DNA from: Eunapius fragilis
Taxonomy: Eukaryota; Porifera; Demospongiae; Spongillida; Spongillidae
DNA: 64,000 nt
NCBI GenBank assembly: GCA_963681505.1
Contig: OY811979.1
Location: forward strand, 9,337,215-9,401,214
Reading direction: 5' to 3'
Shown here: one piece after another, positions 1,662 to 52,921 of the stretch
How the letters are laid out: every line of letters starts with the position of its first letter
Position numbering within the stretch: position 1 is the stretch's first letter
The notes under the pieces: model-generated
Told to the model about the DNA's origin: nothing
What the model saw: only the letters and a program-made list of their open reading frames with translations
Database searches by the model: none
Made by a program: the position numbers and the translations under genes

Positions 1662-3700
1662 AACTTCAAGCGTGAGAGAAACCTCAAATGCATGGAGTCT
1701 CACGCCGAAAGCGTGAGGGTTGGCATGTCTGCAGACTGCCGCTCCACAAAAAATGTCTCTCCTCCCACCATAGACTTTAGTCAAAGATTCACATTGAAAA
1801 ACTCAGTGGGTGAAGGGAGCCATGGTAACAAGCGCCACTCGTTAAACTATTTTACTACTTAATTGTTAGTTCGTACTATTATTGTAAACACTAACATACT
1901 GACTGGACTTACGTGCCTAGCTGTTTCTTTTGTGACACGTGTAGCTAGGTTGTTATAAATTGCGGTGTCACGTGCGGTAGAAAAATATATTTATTCAGTG
2001 ATAAGATTATACGACTGATCAGAGAACATTTTCCTTAGCGAAGATCTGGATGGATGACTCTGCCATTTCTCCTTTAAACTGTCAGAATGACGTTTCTACG
2101 GTCGAACGTATCGCTTTAATTAAGGTAGATGGTATTCTATTATAAGCGCACCTGGATAATTTCTTTGTAGAAACGGAGCCGTGTTTATATGTCCTAGGTG
2201 GATTTTGTCATTGGTGGAATTTTTCCTCGGGAGTATTATGTTTAGCACAACACACTTGAGTGCATTAGTGATCAAGTGTGTTTAGAGCAGTTTTTTATTT
2301 GGTCAGTGCTAAGCAATGCTCCTTGTACCTGTCATTCCCTCCCTCTCTCCTCTCCTCCCACCTATCCTCCTTCCCTTCCTCCCTTTTCCTTCCCCCTCTT
2401 CCTCTTCCTGCATGAACTAGAACCACAACTCCTTCAAGGTACTAGCTGAGACTTACAGGAGGATAGAAAAGGGTGTGTGTACCCCCATATGGAAGTCAGC
2501 CAATATCTTTTGTTGGAGCAGGCCAAGGCCGTCAATTGAGACCGACCTCAACTGTTTCCTTTGGAATCTGTCCATCTATATTGTAGCTCCAGTTCATGCA
2601 GTTTGAAGGCAAGGTGTGTGTTTATAGTTGTGTGTGTGTGTGTGTGTGTGTGCGTGTGTATGTGTGTGTGTGTGTGTTTTAAATGCATGTGATGGTTGCA
2701 TTATTAAGATCTCCAGGTATGAACGTTATTGTTGTATAAATTTGTTATACACATGTATGTCACGGGACTTGTGATATATATATAATATATAAAGTAATGT
2801 ATGTACATGTTCCTATATGTGTGCAAAAATGTGTGGTGTTGGGTGGCTTCACATCTTTGTGAGTCCGTTTTTTGTGTGCATATTTGTGATTAGTGGATAA
2901 CAGTAAGGAAATATAAGTTAGCAAAATAGTGTACTAGTTCGAAGCTTTCTCCCATAGAGCACAAGCCTTTGCAACCTTGCTCTACAGAAACACTGAGGAC
3001 TGCTCAAGCCACCTGTTAATTTGTTGAATTTGTTAACAGTTTACGGGCCAGCAAAACGAAAAAGACATTTGAACGTATCATTGTGACGCCATGTGCATTT
3101 TAGCACTAGATAGAGGAACGTTGCATGCAGTTAATTAACTTATACAACACTTCCTATAAAGCCAGGGGACTGTTATAGAAGGTCAGTTTTCCAATCTGGC
3201 CCAAATAGCAACATGCCACATTCATGCATGTGAGTACCCGCATATTGGTGTCTGTATGCTCGCAAAATCAATTACGCTGCATGTATCTGTTAAATTATTC
3301 CCACCCGACTCAGACATACAATTCTCACAGTCCAATATTTATGTACAGTGACAGTCGCGTGTGTTAGCGAGCAATGGCCAAGGTTTCATTTTATGCTGTT
3401 TGTACATCCAGCATCCACTGGAAAATATAATCACAGTCGTCGGCAATGATGTTAATTAAACCAGATGTTTGTATGATCAAAAATCTAATTAATATTAATA
3501 AATACTACCTTGTCATTCTTCAGCAAATGCAGATGTGTTGCGCTTCTGGCCAGTGCTGCTTCTGTTTTCTTCTATTTTATACTGCGTTTCTATATAGTAT
3601 GCATGGTTGCAAAATCATCACCATATTGTGTCATAAAACCTACGGAAAGAGTTGTCCAAACTTCTTTGGTTGAATGTAAAAACAAGGTATCAAATCTTTT
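1662..3700. other. non-coding stretch with a TG microsatellite and pyrimidine tract
   Basis: No convincing gene. It holds a C/T-rich tract around 2335-2410 and a (TG)n microsatellite at about 2628-2677. A possible first exon (ATG near 2050 followed by AAG|GTAGAT) has no supporting downstream exon. Confidence 0.5.
2628..2677 (+). repeat. (TG)n microsatellite
   Basis: About 25 TG units with a few interruptions (TGCG, TATG). Confidence 0.95.
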
Positions 3701-3726
3701 GTGTCAGCTGGAGCTAAGAGGGGAAT

Positions 3727-4854
3727 AGGGTACCTGTATCATCAGTCAGCTCCTCATTCTCTTTGTCCACTTCAGAAGATTCCTTTTCCTCACCCTCATT
3801 TTCTTCTTGCTCTTTTTCATCATCTTTTATCATGAGCGGGTAAGTTCATATTCAATCCTAAAATTGACATACTCGGCAACGCTTCATTACTATCGCTTAA
3901 AGTGGCCAGCACACTATCCATTTGCTTCCACCTCCCTGCAATAAGAACAGTAATCACACCTTTTTAAGCATTTACATTAACCTGACCAAGTGCCGTGATT
4001 GTTGCTGTGTAATTCTAGTACGGTGATATTGAACTCCATTGAGCTGTTGAAACTGGATGGACCTGTGTACGAAAACTTGGCCTTGCATCAGTATTGACCA
4101 GCATGTGAGGTAAGGAGAGGCGCAAACGTCATGGTGAGGGCATACGAATTACCAGACGCCTACTTCACAGTGGTGACTTTTGAGGTGTTAACCACCTCAG
4201 ACCCGCTGCTGGTCCAAACCAGTGCCAGCGTGAGGTTAAAGGTGGCCCCAACCCCTGCAGTGGCAGAGACGTTGCAGGTGGCTGTGTATGTGTGACCTTC
4301 CACAGGGTCCCCTGATGTGGTGACCTGCAGTCCAGCAGTGTTGAAGGAAGTTAAAGTAAGGCAATGAGTGGGCCAAGAATGCAGCACATGAAGGGGTCCC
4401 CCAGGAAAAACTATATAACATTTTTCACCCTGCTTACCACAAAGGCTGTACAGACAGGCGGGCTTATCACCTGGGCACTGGGAACACAATGGTCCCTTCT
4501 CGTACGGCTTAAGGTTGGTAGCTCTAAAGGGCAAAACATTCCATCACACACACACACACGCACGCAGAATTTGCAGTAGCAAACTTACGCTGTAGCGTAG
4601 TTGCACACTAAGAAATAGACAGTGTGCAGCAACAAACCCGATGATAGAAAGAAATTGTTGCAGACAGTTGCACCGGAGAAAAGAAAGAGGGGGGGGGGGG
4701 AGAGGGAGAGAGAGATTCAACCTAAGCCTGTTATCTATATATGCCATCCCATGACTTTGTACCATCATAGCCATGTTTGCCGCTGTAGGGTTCGCACCAT
4801 GCCGGAAGTAGTTGTACGAATCCAATACCTCCTGCTTAGATAACTGTGCTAGCA
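3727..4854 (-). pseudogene. CAP (SCP/TAPS) plus Ig-like receptor gene remnant
   Basis: Three minus-strand exons are readable. 4854-4763 encodes the first helix of a CAP domain (LSKQEVLDSYNYFRHG, NPTAANMAMM). 4523-4438 encodes the cysteine-rich segment that ends CAP domains (YEKGPLCSQCPG, CLYSLC) and closes on a GTAAGC donor. 4324-4022 encodes an Ig-like domain (DPVEGHTYTATCNVSA, then HAGQY, CKAKFSYTGPSS). Only about 240 bp separate the first two exons, so the middle of the CAP fold, roughly 100 residues including its conserved histidine motifs, is absent. The Ig exon carries two in-frame stops, one replacing the residue between Y and C of the YxC motif. An acidic stretch (KDDEKEQEENEGEEKES) at about 3838-3740 could be a tail exon. 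As a host-type gene it looks dead or badly damaged; the family is extracellular or receptor-like. Confidence 0.65.
4684..4715 (+). repeat. G-run and GA-rich simple repeat
   Basis: A G homopolymer of about 12 followed by GAGAGAG. It lies in the intron of the CAP/Ig remnant. Confidence 0.9.
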
Positions 4855-18600: not shown

Positions 18601-19202
18601 TTTATATAGAGTGTGTAATTAATATAGTGCATGCCTCTGTAATGTATTAGATTTACATTGATGTTACTATGGTTGTACACTTCCGCATATCTTTGTACAC
18701 TTCTTATAATTAAAAAATCTGCGCTTTTTGCTACCTCGATCCCATATGGACATGTATGTAAATGGTTTCAAAGTTCTGTTCAGTGAATCACTGGGGATAT
18801 AAAACAATTTCACCACGGTAATACATATCTACTTCTTTAATTTGAAAATCAGCGATTGTATTAGGGATGGCCAAGAGAAGGTTACTCTTGGTTGCCCCCG
18901 TCCACTGATCTCAATAATTATCGATCGAATGAAGTCGCAAAACTACAACTGCATGTACAGTAGCGGTCAGAATAAAGTTTCCGTAACGTGCAGTTTCACG
19001 TAAACGGCGTCGTGCAATTATAGAAACCGCGCGGTATTAGAACGGCGTTTTAATTAGTTCTTAAACCGTTGAACGCCCGTTACGTTATTGTATGCGCACG
19101 CACACACGTGGCGTATATTTCAACGGCGTTACATTTGACGTGTGATCGTAACAGCGTTGATATTTACGCTCGAGAACGGTTTTTGATTATTGACGCATCA
19201 AG

Positions 19203-21841
19203 ATGAACCCAACCAGCCTTAGGAGATCGCTGAAGATAATTCAATCCGGTAAGAGAAAAAGGATTGTCTACCGATGTTTTAATATACCCACCTGTCACCA
19301 TGTATAGACAATTACTATTTAGTTCACTGGCCAGATGAAGAGTCGGTGTCAGTAGTATCTGGAGACACGTTGTCGTCCGATAAGATCGGTGAGAACTGTA
19401 AGGTGAAGGTGCACAGAAAGGAGTATGTTGGAAAGATTTTGGCAAAAGGTAAGCAAGCGCATATATGCACAAGCACACGCACGTGCATCTAACCTAGCGT
19501 ACAGTGTATGTTACGATAGAAATGTATATCTGCGAGGTGACAAGATGCATTGCTGTTACTAAATAGCGTAACCAAGGAAACATCTGATAGTTAAACCACA
19601 GTTTACATAAGCCTACCGCATTTGATTCTATTGCTACAGTCTACCCTCGATAGTGTCCGCTTCGATACAGTCCATCCGCGATAATGTCCGCTATTTTTCT
19701 TGCCAACTACTAACCCTTCGTAAGCTAAACTTCGCATCGCTACTATCCGTTTGTCCTACAGTCCGCTAGTTTGGGGGTTCCCGTAGCCCGGACTATATCG
19801 AGGGTAGACTGTATTAGAAAAAACGGGCATGTTGAAATTTGTCACTCATACATGTATATAGGTACCAAGGATGAGATGGCAGCTCTTGAGGAAGGCTTTA
19901 TTGATGGTACCTACACACCTTTTGAGAAGGTGCAAGAGAAGGATGTACAGAAGATGGAAGAGCAGTCAGTGCAAAGAAAGAGGGATGATAATAGAGGGAA
20001 AAAGAGTAAGGATGTAAATGATGAGAAGGTGCAAGAGGAGGATTTAGAGAAGATGGAAGAGCAGTCAGTACAAAGAAAGAGGGATGATAATAGAGGGGAA
20101 AAGAATAAGGATGCAAATGATGAGAAGGTGCAAGAGGAGGATGTAGAGAAGATGGAAGAGCAGTCACCACCAAAAAGAGTAAAGAAATTTAAAGCAAATG
20201 AAGGAAAGGGCAGCAAGAAGGGTAGTGATGCTATCAAAAAGAAGCCTAGGAAACCTGCTGCTGTGGGAAAAATCCTGCAAATTGCTTTACATGAAAAAGG
20301 TAAGACTAATTTGCTAAAAATGAATGTTAGTTTATAGTTCTAATCTACCATCCACAGCAGCGGTGACAGGTGCAGGAGGTATGTAACATTTAGGGTTCTA
20401 TACTTTATAATGTACATGTACATTTATACCCAAAAGGCTCTGCGATTAGCAAACATGCTACAGGCACTGTTTCCAAACCTAATGGTGTTACATATACATC
20501 AGCTGGAGGTAAGCAGTATGGCAAGAAAATCTTGATTTACATGTATAAACATTACTTTACTATTTTTGTATTTAGACGGTGAACAATTATCCTCATCACT
20601 CTCATCATACTCATCTGATTCTGACATTTCATTACCTGGTAGGTGCTTTTGTTGCACAATCACTACCTTGTAGCAAACACAACATTTCAGGTTTACAGGA
20701 CCGCATATTGCTGCAAGCAACTGTTCAAGATCTTCAGTGTCGTCTTACCAAAGTGGAGCAACTAATTGACAACTTAGTGAAAAGATTAACTGCACTCGAA
20801 CAAGTATCTGTTCAAACAACAAGGCACATTCTCACACCATCCAGATTTGCCCCTCGACTGTTGGCTGCACCTCACTATTCAACATCCATTACTGAAGCTC
20901 CTACGCTGTCTGAATCACCAGTATCCACTTCTGCACCATTCGAGCTGGCACTGGGCAGTACTTTATCACCTCAGTCACCAGTGTCTTTTGTTCCACCTCA
21001 ACCAGCACTGGGCACTTCTATGCCATCTCACACTTCTGTACCATCTCAGTCACCAGTGTCTTTTGTTCCACCTCAACCAGCACTGGGCACTTCTATGCCA
21101 TCTCACACTTCTGTACCATCTCAGTCACCAGTGTCTTTTGTTCCATCTCAACCAGCACTAGGCAGTTCTATACCATCTCAGTCACCAATGTCTTCTGTTC
21201 CACCCCAACCAGCACTGGGCATTTCAATACCATCTTACACTTCTGTACCATCTCAGTCACCAATGTCGTCTGTTCCACCTCAACCAGCACTGAGCAGTTC
21301 TATACCACCTTACACTTCTGTACCATCTCAGTCACCAATGTCTTTTGCTCCACCTCAACTAGCAATGGGCACTTCTATTCCATCTCAGTCACCAATGTCT
21401 TCCTCCATACTGGCCCAACTGGCCCTGGGTGGTAGTGCATCATCTCAGTCCTCCTCTGTACAACCACCTCAAGGGACAGCAGAGGGCAGTGATGTGCCTC
21501 CTGGACAACCTCTACCCTCATCTGCTATACAGAAAGAGCGCCTATCTTCTGTGGAGGTAGTACTAATTAAAAATTCTAAGCTTAAAGGTGAAGGAAAGGC
21601 ACCTACTTTAGCCCAAAAGTTAGCAAGAGAAGCTATATTTGGAGATGACGTTATGATACGATGCACACCTTTTGGAACTGGTACTCTGCATGCACTACCT
21701 GTTAGGGAACTTCAATATTTAAAGGATATCATGTTTCAACAGCTTCCACAATATTGGAATAACACTGTTGGCTTTGAAGATCTTTGGAAAAAGTGTATGG
21801 AAGCTGTCCAACAAAGTTGCAAACGTTTAAGGCCAAAGTGA
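19203..21841 (+). CDS. BEN-domain protein, seven exons, inside the Tc1-type element
   Basis: Exons 19203-19248, 19308-19448, 19862-20299, 20358-20378, 20437-20508, 20576-20638 and 20691-21841 join in frame (643 residues). All six introns are phase 1 with GT..AG ends. The N-terminus reads MNPTSLRRSLKIIQS, then NYYLVHWPDEESVSVVSGD and KVHRKEYVGKILAKG, a compact beta-rich module. Exon 3 holds acidic/basic repeats of about 40 residues (KVQEEDVEKMEEQS), then lysine-rich sequence. Exon 7 starts with a probable coiled coil (VQDLQCRLTKVEQLIDNLVK), then Pro/Ser repeats (SQSPVSFVPPQPALG) to about residue 530. The C-terminal BEN domain (about 546-643) contains APTLAQKLAREAIFGDD and LKDIMFQQLPQYW. BEN domains bind DNA and act in chromatin. 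A role in transposition or silencing is inference. No disabling change was seen. Confidence 0.85.
19637..19811. mobile_element. pogo/Tigger-like MITE in intron 2 of the BEN gene
   Basis: A 175-bp element with inverted ends CAGTCTACCCTCGATA-GTCCG and reverse complement, flanked by TA (19635-19636, 19812-19813). Start CAGT, TA duplication and short length fit a non-autonomous pogo-type element. It inserted into the intron without touching the splice sites. Confidence 0.8.
20358..20378 (+). other. 21-nt micro-exon with NAGNAG acceptor
   Basis: Exon 4 of the BEN gene is only 21 nt, between CCACAG and a GTATGT donor. It begins CAG, so the acceptor reads CAGCAG and splicing could use either AG. 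That would make exons of 21 or 18 nt, both in frame and differing by one residue. Confidence 0.6.
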
Positions 21842-21949
21842 GACCGCGTTTTCATGGTGTAGTGATTCTGTCTGTAGTTTTTTGCAATGTGTATATGTAG
21901 CAGTTAGTGAAGTTAGCATGCATGTTAAATACACCTAGTGACAAGCCCC

Positions 21950-24905
21950 AATCCCCCTCCTCCCCTTTGATTGGCATCAGTTAGGCATGAGTACACCCAA
22001 AGCCACCTCCCCTTTGATTGGCATTAGATCACACAAACACCTCCCTTATGTGTCAAATAACTACCAATCAGCACAGCTTTAGTAAATCCTTTTTAAAAAA
22101 ATCTCTCAATCCCTCTAAGTAGTTGCCCAAACCCCCTCCTCCCCTTTGATAGGCATTATACGCCCAAACCCCCTCCTCCCCTTTGATAGGCATCAGTAAG
22201 CCCAAACTACCTCCTCCCCTTTGATAGGCATCAGGACACCCAAACTACCTCCTCCCCATTGATAGGCATCAGGACACCCAAACCCCCTCCTCCCCATTGA
22301 TAGGCATCAGGACACCCAAACTACCTCCTCCCCATTGATAGGCATCAGGACACCCAAACCCCCTCCTCCCCTTTGATAGGCATTATACGCCCAAAACTAC
22401 CTCCTCCCCATTGATAGGCATCAGGACACCCAAACCCCCTCCTCCCCTTTGATAGGCATCAGGACACCCAAACCACCTCCTCCCCTTTGATAGGCATCAG
22501 TACGCCCAAACTACCTCCTCCCCATTGATAGGCATCAGGACACCCAAACCCCCTCCTCCCCTTTGATAGGCATTATACGCCCAAACCCCCTCCTCCCCTT
22601 TGATAGGCATCAGGACACCCAAACCCCCTCCTCCCCTTTGATAGGCATTATACGCCCAAACCCCCTCCTCCCCATTGATAGGCATCAGGACACCCAAACC
22701 CCCTCCTCCCCTTTGATAAGCATCAGGACGCCCAAACTACCTCCTCCCCATTGATAGGCATCAGGACACCCAAACCCCCTCCTCCCCTTTGATAGGCATT
22801 ATACGCCCAAACCCCCTCCTCCCCTTTGATAGGCATCAGGACACCCAAACCCCCTCCTCCCCTTTGATAGGCATTATACGCCCAAACCCCCTCCTCCCCA
22901 TTGATAGGCATCAGGACACCCAAACCCCCTCCTCCCCTTTGATAGGCATCAGGACGCCCAAACTACCTCCTCCCCATTGATAGGCATCAGGACACCCAAA
23001 CCCCCTCCTCCCCTTTGATAGGCATCAGGACACCCAAACCCCCTCCTCCCCTTTGATAGGCATCAGTACGCCCAAACTACCTCCTCCCCATTGATAGGCA
23101 TCAGGACACCCAAACCCCCTCCTCCCCTTTGATAGGCATTATACGCCCAAACCCCCTCCTCCCCTTTGATAGGCATCAGGACACCCAAACCCCCTCCTCC
23201 CCTTTGATAGGCATCAGTACGCCCAAACTACCTCCTCATTGATAGGCATCAGGACGCCCAAACCCCCTCCTCCCCTTTGATAGGCATCAGGACACCCAAA
23301 CCCCCTCCTCCCCTTTGATAGGCATCAGGACACCCAAACCACCTCCTCCCCTTTGATAGGCATCAGTACGCCCAAACTACCTCCTCCCCATTGATAGGCA
23401 TCAGGACACCCAAACCCCCTCCTCCCCTTTGATAGGCATTATACGCCCAAACCCCCTCCTCCCCTTTGATAGGCATCAGGACACCCAAACCCCCTCCTCC
23501 CCTTTGATAGGCATCAGTACGCCCAAACTACCTCCTCATTGATAGGCATCAGGACACCCAAACCACCTCCTCCCCTTTGATAGGCATCAGTACGCCCAAA
23601 CTACCTCCTCCCCATTGATAGGCATCAGGACACCCAAACCCCCTCCTCCCCTTTGATAGGCATTATACGCCCAAACCCCCTCCTCCCCTTTGATAGGCAT
23701 CAGGACACCCAAACCCCCTCCTCCCCTTTGATAGGCATCAGGACACCCCAACCCCCTCCTCCCCTTTGATAGGCATCAGTACGCCCAAACTACCTCCTCC
23801 CCTTTGATAGGCATCAGTACGCCCAAACTACCTCCTCCCCATTGATAGGCATCAGGACACCCAAACCCCCTCCTCCCCTTTGATAGGCATTATACGCCCA
23901 AACCCCCTCCTCCCCTTTGATAGGTATCAGGACACCCAAACCCCCTCCTCCCCTTTGATAGGCATTATACGCCCAAACCCCCTCCTCCCCATTGATAGGC
24001 ATCAGGACACCCAAACCCCCTCTTCCCCTTTGATAGGCATCAGGACGCCCAAACTACCTCCTCCCCATTGATAGGCATCAGGACACCCAAACCCCCTCCT
24101 CCCCTTTGATAGGCATCAGGACACCCAAACCACCTCAACCCCTTTGATAGGCATCAGTACGCCCAAACTACCTCCTCCCCATTGATAGGCATCAGGACAC
24201 CCAAACCCCCTCCTCCCCTTTGATAGGCATTATACGCCCAAACCCCCTCCTCCCCTTTGATAGGCATCAGGACACCCAAACCCCCTCCTCCCCTTTGATA
24301 GGCATCAGTACGCCCAAACTACCTCCTCATTGATAGGCATCAGGACGCCGAAACCCCCTCCTCCCCTTTGATAGGCATCAGGACACCCAAACCCCCTCCT
24401 CCCCTTTGATAGGCATCAGTACGCCCAAACTACCTCCTCCCCTTTGATAGGCATCAGTACGCCCAAACTACCTCCTCCCCATTGATAGGCATCAGGACAC
24501 CCAAACCAGAGATAATATACTACCTCCTCCCCATTGATAGGCATCAGGACACCCAAACCCCCTCCTCCCCTTTGATAGGCATCAGGACACCCAAACCACC
24601 TCCTCCCCTTTGATAGGCATCAGTACGCCCAAACTACCTCCTCCCCATTGATAGGCATCAGGACACCCAAACCCCCTCCTCCCCTTTGATAGGCATTATA
24701 CGCCCAAACCCTCTCCTCCCCTTTGATAGGCATCAGGACACCCAAACCCCCTCCTCCCCTTTGATAGGCATCAGCATGCCCAAACTACCTCCTCCCCGTT
24801 GGTAGGCATCAGGACGCCCAAACCCCCTCTTCCCCTTTGATAGGCATCTTATGTCAAGACCCCCTCCTCCCCTTTGATAGGCATTAGATCACTGCACAAA
24901 CACCT
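21950..24905 (+). repeat. 37/38-bp minisatellite with higher-order structure
   Basis: About 70 head-to-tail units (dense from about 22127 to 24860) of CCCAAACCCCCTCCTCCCC then TTTGATAGGCATCAGGACA. Three recurring variants differ by CTACC for CCCCC, CCATTGATAG for CCTTTGATAG, and CATTATACG for CATCAGGACA. Variants recur in fixed order with a 226-bp period (for example 22497 vs 22723). Diverged boundary sequence TTAGATCAC-CACAAACACCTCCCT lies at both edges (about 22024 and 24886). The minus strand carries GGGGAGGAGGGGG in most units, a strong G-quadruplex pattern. Open frames here are products of the repeat. The array separates the convergent BEN and transposase genes. Confidence 0.93.
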
Positions 24906-25182
24906 CCCTATAAGGATGTGTGGAATGTTTGCTAATCTGCACAGCTACAAGTAAATATTTGTTCTATGTTAGGCACAAAGACAGTGAAACAAACCACCTT
25001 TGTTTAAAAATAAAAAAAAAGCACCTTCTTCCAACAAGCCACAAACTGCCTCCTTTTTAAAATAATAGGCACCTAAGATATGTCATGCACAAACTTTCCC
25101 TCCCATATGATTGGTACAGTGCCGGGTGGACATTCCAAAAAAATCAGTCTTATTTATACGTGTTCATGTATATGCAAAATAA

Positions 25183-26249
25183 TCAATAACCAGTTGCAGC
25201 ACCATTGAGTTCAATGACCTTAGGTATAACTTTCCTCAGATGTCTAATATATTTCTGGCACTTCTCTTTATCTACAGTATGCCAAAATGCAATTATACCA
25301 GCAATAAGCTCATCTTTTGTTCGCGGCTTGATTTCTCTTCTCATATACTCCTTTAATTCATGCCACAGATTCTCTATGGGATTGCAGTCCGGTGACTCTG
25401 CAGGCGTTCTCCACCAGTTTATCCTATTGTCCGAGATGAACTGTTGAGCCAGCCGTGACGTGTGTTTGGGGTCATTGTCTGCCATAAAACGATGGCTGTG
25501 GGGAAGGATATCTGATAAAAATGGTAGCAATGTATCTTGCAGGATTTCAACATATAATGGAGCCTTCATGATCCCATCGAAGATGCAGATTCCTGTTGCT
25601 CCTTCAATACTGATACCTGCCCAGACATGAACTTTGGTAGGATGTTTAGCCCTATAAATAAATTTGCAAATGTAATTACATCTACAACATGATACGATAT
25701 TTAACTGTACCTAGGTTTGTTTTTGGGTGGCTCTCCTCGCTTGCGACAGCAGAAGCGGCGATGTGACTCCAGCTGCACTGTGCACTCATCCGTCCAGAGC
25801 ACGTCCTTGAATCCTGTTTCAGCCTCGTGCAGGTGTAGTTTTGCCCAATCCAGTCTCTTCAGTTTATTTGGCTCCCGTATCATCTGGCAGTATGCGCTTC
25901 CGCGAAAGGTCCAGCCCAAAGCACTTCTGCACCGAAGTATCGTTCTAAACGATAGGTAATGACCCCGAGCATTCAAAAGAGCGTGCAGTTGCGACGCAGT
26001 TGTTTCATCATCCTTCTTCATCTGCTCTTCAACGATGGCTTTTACTTCCGCCGTTACCTTCGACTTACGTCCACCCCCAGGCTTTCTTCCAATAGTGCCA
26101 TCTGATTTGAACTTCTTGATAAACTTCAATATGCCTTGCCTAGTTGCGTACATGCCTTCTTCTTCTAGCCGTTTTAAAATGGCAGGTGGATTTAAACCTT
26201 TCGAAAAAAAGAACAGGATACGCAGCTTTTGGTAGTGGGAGTAAACCAT
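25183..26249 (-). CDS. Tc1/mariner-type DD34E transposase, apparently intact, one intron
   Basis: Exon 26249-25711 and exon 25651-25183 join across a 59-bp GT..AG intron to 335 residues, typical for Tc1 (about 340). The N-terminal paired-type HTH region (YSHYQKLRILFFFSKGLN...FIKKFKSDGTIGRK) is followed by the basic GRKPGGGRK linker. Catalytic residues are present: D154 (LWTDEC), D238 (MADNDPKHTS) and E273 (CNPIENLWHELK), with 34 residues between the last two. Without the intron, KPR joins AKHPTKVHVWAGIS, the expected family sequence. No stop or frameshift was seen. The start ATG lies 263 bp from the right terminus. An annotated open start further upstream lies in terminal sequence and is not needed. 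Confidence 0.88.
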
Positions 26250-26570
26250 TTTGAAAAAGCACAGGCGACGATCGAGTCGGGAAGCGAGCACGTGCACATA
26301 AAACGGCGTTATCATCGCCGTTTTTTATTTACGCCGTTACTTACGACTACTTGCCGTTTAAACGGACTACATAATTTAACCGTCGTGACGCCTTTGTGGT
26401 GGCGTGGTTTAATCAGTTTTTTTTAACGACCGCGGGAACCGCACGTTAATTATCACACTTTACGGCTTCCGTAAAACTGCACGTTACGGAAACTTTATTT
26501 TGACCGCTACTGTATGTGCAAAAGAATCTCTTTTTCTCACCTGCGACTTCAACAGATGATGGTTTGATGA

Positions 26571-27945
26571 TGTGAGACATCACCCCACATCCCCACTTCA
26601 CCCCACATCACCACTTCACCCCCCACATCACCACTTCACCCCACATCACCACCTCACCCCACACCACCACTGCACCCCACATCCACACATCATCCCACAT
26701 CACCACTTCACCCCCCAGATCACCACTTCACCCCACATCACCCCACATCACCACTTCACCCCTCCACATCACCACTTCACCCCACATCACCACTTCATCC
26801 CACATCACCACTTCACCCCACATCACCACTTCACCCCCACATCCCCACTTCACCCCACATCCACACATCATCCCACATCACCACTTCACCCCCCACATCC
26901 CCACTTCACCCCACATCACCACCTCACCCCACACCACCACTGCACCCCACATCCACACATCCCACATCACCACATCACCACTTCATCCCACATCCCCACT
27001 TCACCCCCCAGATCACCACTTCACCCCACATCACCCCACATCCCCACTTCATCCCACATCACCACTTCACCCCTCCACATCACCACTTCATCCCACATCG
27101 CCACTTCATCCCACATCACCACTTCATCCCACATCACCACTTAACCCCCCCACATCACCACTTCACCCCACATCACCACTTCACCCCCCACATCCCCACT
27201 TCACCACTTCACCCCACATCCACACATCATCCCACCTCACCCCACACCCCCACATCACCACTTCATCCCACATCACCACATCACCACTTCACCCCACATC
27301 CACACATCATCCCACATCCCCACATCACCACTTCACCCCACACCCCACTTCATCCCACATCACCACATCACACCACATCACCACCTCACTCCACATCACC
27401 ACTTCACCCCACATCCCCACATCCCCACTTCACCCCACATCATCACTTCACCCCACATCACCACCTCACCCCACATCACCACCTCACCCCACATCACCAC
27501 CTCACCCCACATCACCACTTCACCCCACATCCCCACTTCACCCCACATCACCACTTCACCCCACATCACCACCTCACCCCACATCACCACCTCACCCCAC
27601 ATCACCACCTCACCCCACATCACCACCTCACTCCACATCACCACTTCACCCCACATCCCCACTTCACCCCACATCACCACCTCACCCCACATCACCACCT
27701 CACCCCACATCACCACCTCACCCCACATCCCCACCTCACCCCACATCCCCACCTCACCCCACATCACCACCTCACCCCACATCACCACCTCACCCCACAT
27801 CACCACTTCACCCCACATCCCCACTTCACCCCCCCCCACATCACCCCACATCCCCACTTAACCCCCCACATCCCCACTTCACCCCCACATCCCCACTTCA
27901 CCCCACATCCCCACTTCACCCCACATCCCCACATCACTACTTTGA
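26571..27945 (+). repeat. 18-bp minisatellite (CACCCCACATCACCACTT)
   Basis: Over 70 imperfect 18-bp units, with variants CATCCCCACTT and CACCACCTC and insertions of ACACATCATCC. It starts about 60 bp outside the right end of the Tc1-type element. The frames through it (HPTSPLHP on plus, MWGEVVMWGEV on minus) come from the repeat and are not genes. Confidence 0.95.
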
Positions 27946-52160: not shown

Positions 52161-52921
52161 CAGTAGCGGTCAAAAAAAGCATTACGTTTCGTTTTTGTAG
52201 AACGATCGTAGCACAATTGAACGGAATCGGTCGAACATCGTTATACAAACATCGTTTGTAGATTATATAAACGATTGTGATGCCGTTTTACTAATCTGTT
52301 TTTATATAATCAGTACGTGAGTGCATGTGTTTAGAAAATGGTGTATAGTGAGTACACGAAGCTGCAAATACTGTTCTACCAATTCAAGGGTTTGAAAGCT
52401 CCAACTATCGCTCGATATCTTCAAGCGGAGAACATTTATTGTGCGCGACAGAACGTAGCGATCTTCATAAAGAAGTACCGTCAAACCAAATCAATATTTC
52501 GACGATCGGGATCGGGTAGACCCTCAAAACTCACTGCTGAAGTAAAGGCAATAGTGGAAGAAGAGACGAGAAAGGATGATGAAACAACGGCGCACCAGTT
52601 GCACCAATTGCTTTGGTCACGCGGGTAAAGAATTAGCCTCCACACCATTTTACGCTGCAGGACCTCCCTTGGATGGACGTTTCGTGGAAGCGCGTAATGC
52701 CAATACTTACTCCTAAGCGTCATCGTTCACACGTATCGTTAGTCCGTAAAAATCAACGATGCACAAAAATGCGCGCACATCGTTAACAAAAAAGGTGTCA
52801 GGATCGGCTTCGTATTGACTTCGTTCTGACTTCGTTCTGACTTCGTTTTTTTAAACCATACGCTACTGTAAAACGATCGTTGTACAAAAACGAAACATAA
52901 TGCTTATTTTGACCGCTACTG
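52161..52921 (+). mobile_element. deleted Tc1-type element, close relative of 18958-26512
   Basis: 761 bp with TA on both sides (52159-52160, 52922-52923). Ends start CAGTAGCGGTCAAAA, the same first 12 bases as the 7.5-kb element, then diverge (AGCATTACGTTTCGTTTTTG; from the right AGCATTATGTTTCGTTTTTG). The left side carries the transposase start; the right side, read on the minus strand, has an ATG at 52723 and a GTAAGT donor 13 nt later. The deletion thus joined the transposase N-terminal part directly to intron 1 of the opposite-end gene. Confidence 0.85.
52338..52702 (+). pseudogene. N-terminal part of Tc1-type transposase
   Basis: Starts MVYSEYTKLQILFYQFKGLK and follows the DNA-binding half of the intact enzyme at 25183-26249 (RQNVAIFIKKYRQT, RRSGSGRPSKLTAEVKAIVE, DDETTAHQLHQLL). 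A stop replaces the residue after WSRG, reading resumes as RISLHTILRCRTSLGWTFRG and ends shortly after. The catalytic DD34E domain is deleted. Confidence 0.85.

Follow-up and report, generated by a model that had tools for sequence, protein, structure and literature searches.

Within a 64,000-nucleotide stretch of the sponge Eunapius fragilis (contig OY811979.1, positions 9,337,215 to 9,401,214; hereafter the window, in whose numbering positions are given unless a contig or locus is named) lies a Tc1-type transposon that contains two genes. The element occupies 7,559 bp at 18956-26514, both flanking TA dinucleotides counted, and inside the same termini a BEN-domain gene on the plus strand converges on a DD34E transposase gene on the minus strand. 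The element belongs to an old lineage in which the BEN-domain protein and the transposase are inherited as one mobile unit; this pairing is family-wide, and it is very likely that the two genes function as a team. On balance we favour the view that the element moves autonomously as a two-gene Tc1 transposon and that its BEN protein, by binding the CpG-rich zones inside the ends, aids transposition or opposes silencing by methylation. Both the binding to CpG-containing words and its effect are inferred.

The boundaries given in a preliminary description of this DNA hold good. The left terminal inverted repeat (18958-18996, plus strand) is identical to the reverse complement of the right one (26474-26512, minus strand) at 38 of 39 positions, and a TA lies outside each, at 18956-18957 and 26513-26514. 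The terminal inverted repeats start with CAGT in the families checked, which include the window element's own family (family A) and family B. Tc1/mariner elements insert at TA and duplicate it, and we found this here, with a TA on each side of the element and a single TA in the corresponding empty sites of sister copies.

Searching the genome (219 Mb in 24 contigs) with a 33-bp end pattern, allowing up to three mismatches, gave 24 places, while a reversed control pattern gave none. Five pairs of these places bracket the five best BEN matches, which are 97-100% identical and include the window copy. The five family A copies are 7,559, 7,487, 7,262, 7,299 and 5,937 bp long; with a minisatellite between the genes excluded, their identity is 98.65-100% to the left of it and 99.19-100% to the right. 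All five retain intact BEN and transposase frames and all 12 BEN splice sites. Two of the copies, C9:4498372-4505858 and C20:5844830-5852128, have the same 20 bases on both sides where these were compared, and apparently represent a segmental duplication taking in the element; with two of the five sharing their flanks, the copies stand at four independent insertion sites. The preliminary description had also proposed looking for an empty TA site in another individual; the search here was made within this one genome. When the flanks of copy E3 were joined over one TA, the result aligned across all 302 positions, with the element absent, at 11 loci (11 of 23 matches listed) with 96-98% identity, and the junction of the joined E5 flanks was spanned in one of four matches, at 90% identity. 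A family B copy lies inside a 25-bp tandem array, the repeat unit of which is restored if a single TA is kept.

The association of the two genes extends well beyond family A. A search of the genome for the BEN domain gave 71 rows, which reduce to 64 loci, and a search for the transposase gave 138 rows and 89 loci (114 of 448 first-look candidates were scored). At 44 of the 64 BEN loci a transposase lies within 10 kb in convergent orientation; six have one in another orientation and 14 have none. Random placement of the BEN loci would give 0.54 with a neighbouring transposase in any orientation, although the 64 are not all independent and include copies and duplications. Both terminal repeats were located for 22 of the 44 convergent pairs (five in family A, four in B, one in C, one in D and 11 in E), while for the other 22 the ends were located on a single side, escaped detection or were not sought (100 of 231 end places were listed). 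The left TA of the family D element reads TG, and in families F and G (L065, L066) the search for a pair of terminal repeats found none. Further copies in which a single pair of ends encloses both genes, which the preliminary description had suggested seeking, thus amount to four more of family A and 17 loci in four related families, and they exclude the possibility it had raised that the BEN gene always lies outside such termini. Family B is particularly clear, as two of its copies, each about 5.25 kb long and on separate contigs, are 99.8% identical, differ in their flanks and hold both genes inside ends of their own; compared with family A, its BEN protein is 65% identical and its transposase pieces 64-76%. 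That a DNA-binding or chromatin-type protein travels with the transposase, as had been proposed, is borne out by the five copies at four sites and by the convergent pairs.

A second, far-diverged Tc1 lineage likewise has a convergent BEN gene, at two loci. At the first (L074, C1:13447744-13449624) the transposase is 42% identical and the convergent BEN gene is detected by the Pfam BEN model; at the other (C2:7115336-7116805) decayed relatives of both genes are found, again convergent. L074 had no BEN partner in the first listing and was a candidate for a BEN-less control, but was rejected as such when the BEN gene was found there. Three genome matches exceed the cut-off of the Pfam BEN model, and two of them have a Tc1 transposase next to them; among the matches listed, none was near the third, on C11.

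The BEN gene has its ATG at 19203, 245 bp from the left end, and runs to 21841 in seven exons separated by GT-AG introns, encoding 638 amino acids. Exon 1 (19203-19248) contains the start codon and is followed by exon 2 (19323-19448), a basic exon 3 with 99-bp coding repeats (19862-20299), exons 4 (20358-20378), 5 (20437-20508) and 6 (20576-20638), and exon 7 (20691-21841), which encodes a probable coiled coil, Ser/Pro-rich repeats, the C-terminal BEN domain and the stop; all seven are kept in the five copies. The coiled coil, ahead of the Ser/Pro-rich part, is considered probable from a weak TRPM_tetra match (E 0.061) and from reading of the sequence. The frame that the preliminary description had called an intact BEN gene is indeed intact, and the BEN label comes from relatives and fold rather than from the window sequence alone. 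A Pfam scan of the window protein gave no BEN match; PF10523, the Pfam BEN model, matches five of 15 BEN sequences scanned at E <= 1 (best 1.5e-7), the window domain being among the 15 and itself lacking a match. Searches of PDB sequences, with the single sequence and with a profile, returned no BEN chain at E <= 1. In structure comparison, however, an AlphaFold model of the C-terminal domain built from 71 sequences has a BEN fold, with DNA-bound BEN domains as its top matches; an earlier model from 11 sequences was poor, with a predicted local distance difference test score (pLDDT) of 55.8. The fold is shared with BANP, BEND3, BEND6, NACC1 and Insensitive, but these are host genes and sequence identity to BEN structures is 8-15% (14 BEN rows of the comparison).

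The transposase gene, which had been placed correctly as intact, convergent with the BEN gene and 263 bp from the right end, starts with an ATG at 26249 and runs on the minus strand to 25183, encoding 335 amino acids in two exons. Exon 1 (25711-26249) encodes a putative helix-turn-helix part and the first D, and exon 2 (25183-25651), beyond a GT-AG intron at 25652-25710, the second D and the E of the triad as read from the sequence; both exons are intact in all five copies. The protein has a DDE_3 domain (PF13358, E 5.3e-21), the DD34E spacing was counted by eye, and at the N-terminus, where Tc1/mariner transposases have a bipartite helix-turn-helix, matches to HTH_32 and HTH_Tnp_Tc3_2 fall under their curated cut-offs. 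Its best relative among 120 of 1,512 matches listed is Em0006g1137a, a label that we take to denote Ephydatia muelleri, with 77% identity over 87% of the query; a BEN relative in E. muelleri is 51% identical.

The two proteins have also diverged together. Of 26 loci at which we read both genes, 15 were retained after removal of loci less than 0.08 in BEN distance from another. BEN and transposase distances among these 15 are correlated (Mantel r 0.685, 0 of 9,999 permutations), and remain so with a single family E member (r 0.443; 7 of 9,999) and when two decayed loci are also left out (r 0.624; 0). Purifying selection acts on the BEN domain between families A to G: in all 21 of the 21 pairs the proportion of nonsynonymous differences (pN 0.24-0.49) is well below that of synonymous differences, which are at or close to saturation (pS 0.71-0.99). 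Distant BEN-domain pairs in family E, with synonymous substitution rates (dS) of 0.39-1.22, have ratios of nonsynonymous to synonymous rates (dN/dS) of 0.07-0.17, and family A transposases differ by at most one replacement per pair. BEN modules can nevertheless be exchanged between elements, as the family E elements L076 and L077 differ from L064 by a dS of only 0.02 and 0.04 in the transposase and of 1.22 and 1.17 in the BEN domain.

The zones between the terminal repeats and the genes bear on what the BEN protein may do. We analysed the outer 260 bp at each end in five families (A to E), ten zones in all. The ratio of observed to expected CpG is 1.35-2.60 in all ten, compared with 0.33-0.52 in the element interiors and 0.56 in the window outside the element. 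In the window element the left zone, with its AACGG-type words, occupies 18997-19202 on the plus strand and the right zone 26250-26473 on the minus strand; the outer 260 bp have ratios of 2.28 and 2.17, respectively. AACGG occurs six and five times in the two 260-bp end zones and five times across the 7,039-bp interior, in agreement with the AACGG-rich zones noted earlier. Among CpG words, AACGG is the most frequent in both A and B; C favours ACCGT and AACGT, D favours ACGAT and AACGA, and E favours CGCAA and CGTAA. The best word was equalled in 22, 0, 57, 0 and 13 of 500 within-zone shuffles that keep dinucleotides (A to E, respectively). In seven short non-autonomous elements (0.68-1.47 kb), chosen from close end pairs, four having C-type ends and three ends that are B-like but for one base, the ends are CpG-rich in every case, and the four with C-type ends retain the two zones of family C as far as the gene starts. 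Many non-autonomous elements of 0.65-1.5 kb with C-type or B-like ends were seen, L067-L073 among them, and the short elements are presumably mobilised by the two-gene elements.

At these ends CpGs decay faster than other positions do. In a small sample of four short and one complete C-type element, 37 of 500 CpG positions in the ends deviate from the majority, compared with 39 of 1,691 other positions, and C>T or G>A changes account for 30 of the 37. Judging from these substitutions, inserted copies appear methylated and prone to CpG loss, in which case active copies must renew their CpGs, and selection is a likelier reason than absence of methylation for the CpG richness of mobile copies. 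The outer left end of family E is constrained: two elements whose BEN domains are 1.22 apart in dS differ at 2 of 120 positions in the outer 120 bp and at 23 of 160 in the next stretch. Conserved, CpG-rich ends provide indirect support for binding of the ends by the BEN protein and for a role against silencing.

A possible mechanism is that the BEN protein oligomerises through its probable coiled coil and binds the repeated CpG-containing words within the 100-250 bp internal to each terminal repeat. Once bound, it could help the transposase to pair the ends, or shield or reopen methylated, silenced copies, or both. A like role, in end pairing and protection or in the reopening of silenced copies, belongs to TnpA of the En/Spm elements of plants. 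Another plant parallel is found in VANDAL elements, which form a transposon superfamily other than Tc1/mariner and whose VANC proteins are not known to contain a BEN domain. According to one report, VANC proteins of Arabidopsis bind the noncoding repeats of their own elements and trigger the loss of silent marks (PMC10398659). The likeness lies in a sequence-specific protein encoded by the element and in noncoding, repeated targets that diverge fast; the difference, besides the host being a plant, is that binding and loss of silent marks are reported there, while CpG-rich repeated end zones are what is seen here (PMC10398659). As for the domain itself, BANP and BEND3 are stated to favour unmethylated CpG DNA, for which BANP requires oligomerisation, in a further report (PMC11472053). 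A bolder proposal is that this is an ancient animal lineage of two-gene Tc1 elements in which each family's BEN protein acts as a methylation-aware reader of its own CpG end repeats, an anti-silencing system independent of plant VANC and TnpA; this we advance only tentatively.

Several observations weigh against an end-binding partner of the transposase. The commonest CpG word of family C is within the expectation from composition, so that words exceed shuffles in four of the five families, and families A and B have the same commonest word. The left end of the family E element C18 is nearly that of L064 over the outer 120 bp although their BEN domains are unlike, which is of slight weight against the binding model. 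The outer end of family E is thus constrained yet unchanged with BEN type, and the BEN module can be swapped with no change of the end. The zones also contain promoters and presumably transposase sites, and their constraint need not involve BEN. On the side of the proteins, the Mantel correlation among the nine most distinct families, with the next closest pairs dropped, falls to 0.415 (230 of 9,999); close BEN-domain pairs (dS <0.3) have scattered dN/dS values of 0.09-1.2, some in families other than A reaching 0.7-1.2; and the whole family A BEN coding sequence has values of 0.66-0.89, from few changes. Finally, 41 of the 89 transposase loci have no listed BEN partner. Many of these are fragments and the BEN search was the less sensitive, but BEN-less elements of the lineage may also exist.

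Other explanations of the pairing differ greatly in how well they account for these data. Since BEN and Tc1 sequences are both repeated in the genome, a BEN gene and a Tc1 element might have become neighbours by chance, or the two ends might come from different copies. The occurrence of both genes within the same termini in five copies at four sites, the convergent pairs in their excess over random placement and the empty sites of E3 and E5 leave this practically no probability; the sister copies rule it out, as does family B, which is distinct from A and whose two genes lie inside ends of its own. It is also quite improbable that a host BEN gene was captured once and has since been carried with no role in transposition, given that the pairing persists across families with transposase distances of up to 0.61, that BEN-domain pN is well under saturated pS between all families compared, and that the same convergent layout recurs at two loci of the far-diverged second lineage. 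Such a passenger would nonetheless suit the weak constraint on the whole BEN coding sequence of family A, as well as the common occurrence of short elements with ends but without intact genes, from which it follows that ends in cis suffice for movement.

Another question is what the ends are for. The zones lie directly upstream of both start codons, CpG-rich promoters are usual, and family E elements of unlike BEN type have the outer left end in common; all this would fit ends that consist of promoters and transposase sites only, with the BEN protein acting elsewhere, for instance in target choice or on host genes. We consider this unlikely, as the short elements, which need no promoter, retain the zones, and the repeated words go beyond composition in most families. 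To much the same degree we doubt that the BEN protein represses the promoters or the transposase of its own element, keeping copy number low and sparing the host. BEN proteins are described as recruiters of chromatin-modifying factors (PMC10206803), and few complete copies were located per family (1 to 11), but a low copy number can be explained in other ways.

The element is a member of Tc1/mariner, with which it shares the TA target, the CAGT ends and a DDE_3 transposase, encoded in family A by two exons; what sets it apart is the BEN gene as a second gene. Complete elements measured 4.6-7.6 kb, and they differ further in the long CpG-rich subterminal zones and, in family A, in the minisatellite between the genes. 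The preliminary description had quoted 1-2.5 kb and a lone transposase gene as the norm for Tc1/mariner, a habit rather than a criterion, from which an element of 7,559 bp with two genes departs; as a statement of what is usual it can stand, but an exception to it was already known in ciliates (PMC12242761). There the TBE elements of Oxytricha encode a Tc1/mariner transposase and two further genes, proposed accessory factors under purifying selection (PMC12242761). This is the nearest precedent that we found for extra genes in Tc1/mariner. The TBE accessory proteins are a 57-kDa zinc-finger/kinase protein and a 22-kDa protein, with no BEN domain named there; here the sole further gene found ends in a BEN fold, and a Pfam scan of the window BEN protein at E <= 0.5 gave no zinc finger and no kinase. 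BEN domains do occur in other mobile settings, and polydnaviruses carry BEN genes. DUF4806, stated to be a BEN subtype, is tabulated alongside Tc1 transposase domains among the domains expanded in Hydra and is found in genes on zebrafish chromosome 4 (PMC7642931, PMC11075544); there, as for the polydnavirus genes, BEN or BEN-like domains appear in mobile or repetitive surroundings with no description of membership in a Tc1 element. In the open-licence literature we found no Tc1 element described as containing a BEN gene, although such a description could exist elsewhere, Repbase being outside the search.

Tc1/mariner elements are textbook examples of self-sufficient transposons, requiring one enzyme and two short ends. 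A second, chromatin-type gene kept across diverged families suggests that one enzyme is not always sufficient, here in an animal with a methylated-looking genome, and would offer an animal counterpart to the anti-silencing proteins of plants that can be tested directly. The natural variation of the system, with CpG words that are mostly family-specific and BEN modules that have been swapped, could be used to match protein to site. Elements of this kind are also a possible source of some BEN genes; if each family's BEN protein does read its own ends, the BEN genes of sponges would in part belong to transposons or descend from genes that did.

The minisatellite of the window element, which had been overlooked, occupies 22125-24884 between the 3' ends of the two genes, with 72.8 copies of a 38-bp unit; its length varies among the five copies, and it accounts in large part for the unusual length of the element. 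Minisatellites with different units lie between the genes in three families, with a 38-bp unit in A, 28-bp shifts in B (L060, at about 3480-4000) and shifts of about 61 bp in E (between the genes of L064 and L076). In BEN intron 2, a stretch with inverted ends at 19636-19815 (CTACCCTCGATA...TCGAGGGTAGACTGTA) is probably a small nested element, and the alignment of the five family A copies has no large gap there. A separate minisatellite, with an 18-bp unit, begins 66 bp beyond the right end of the element and extends over 26580-27937, and farther along the window, at 52323-52709, lies a decayed fragment of a related Tc1 transposase that is 58% identical and contains internal stops.

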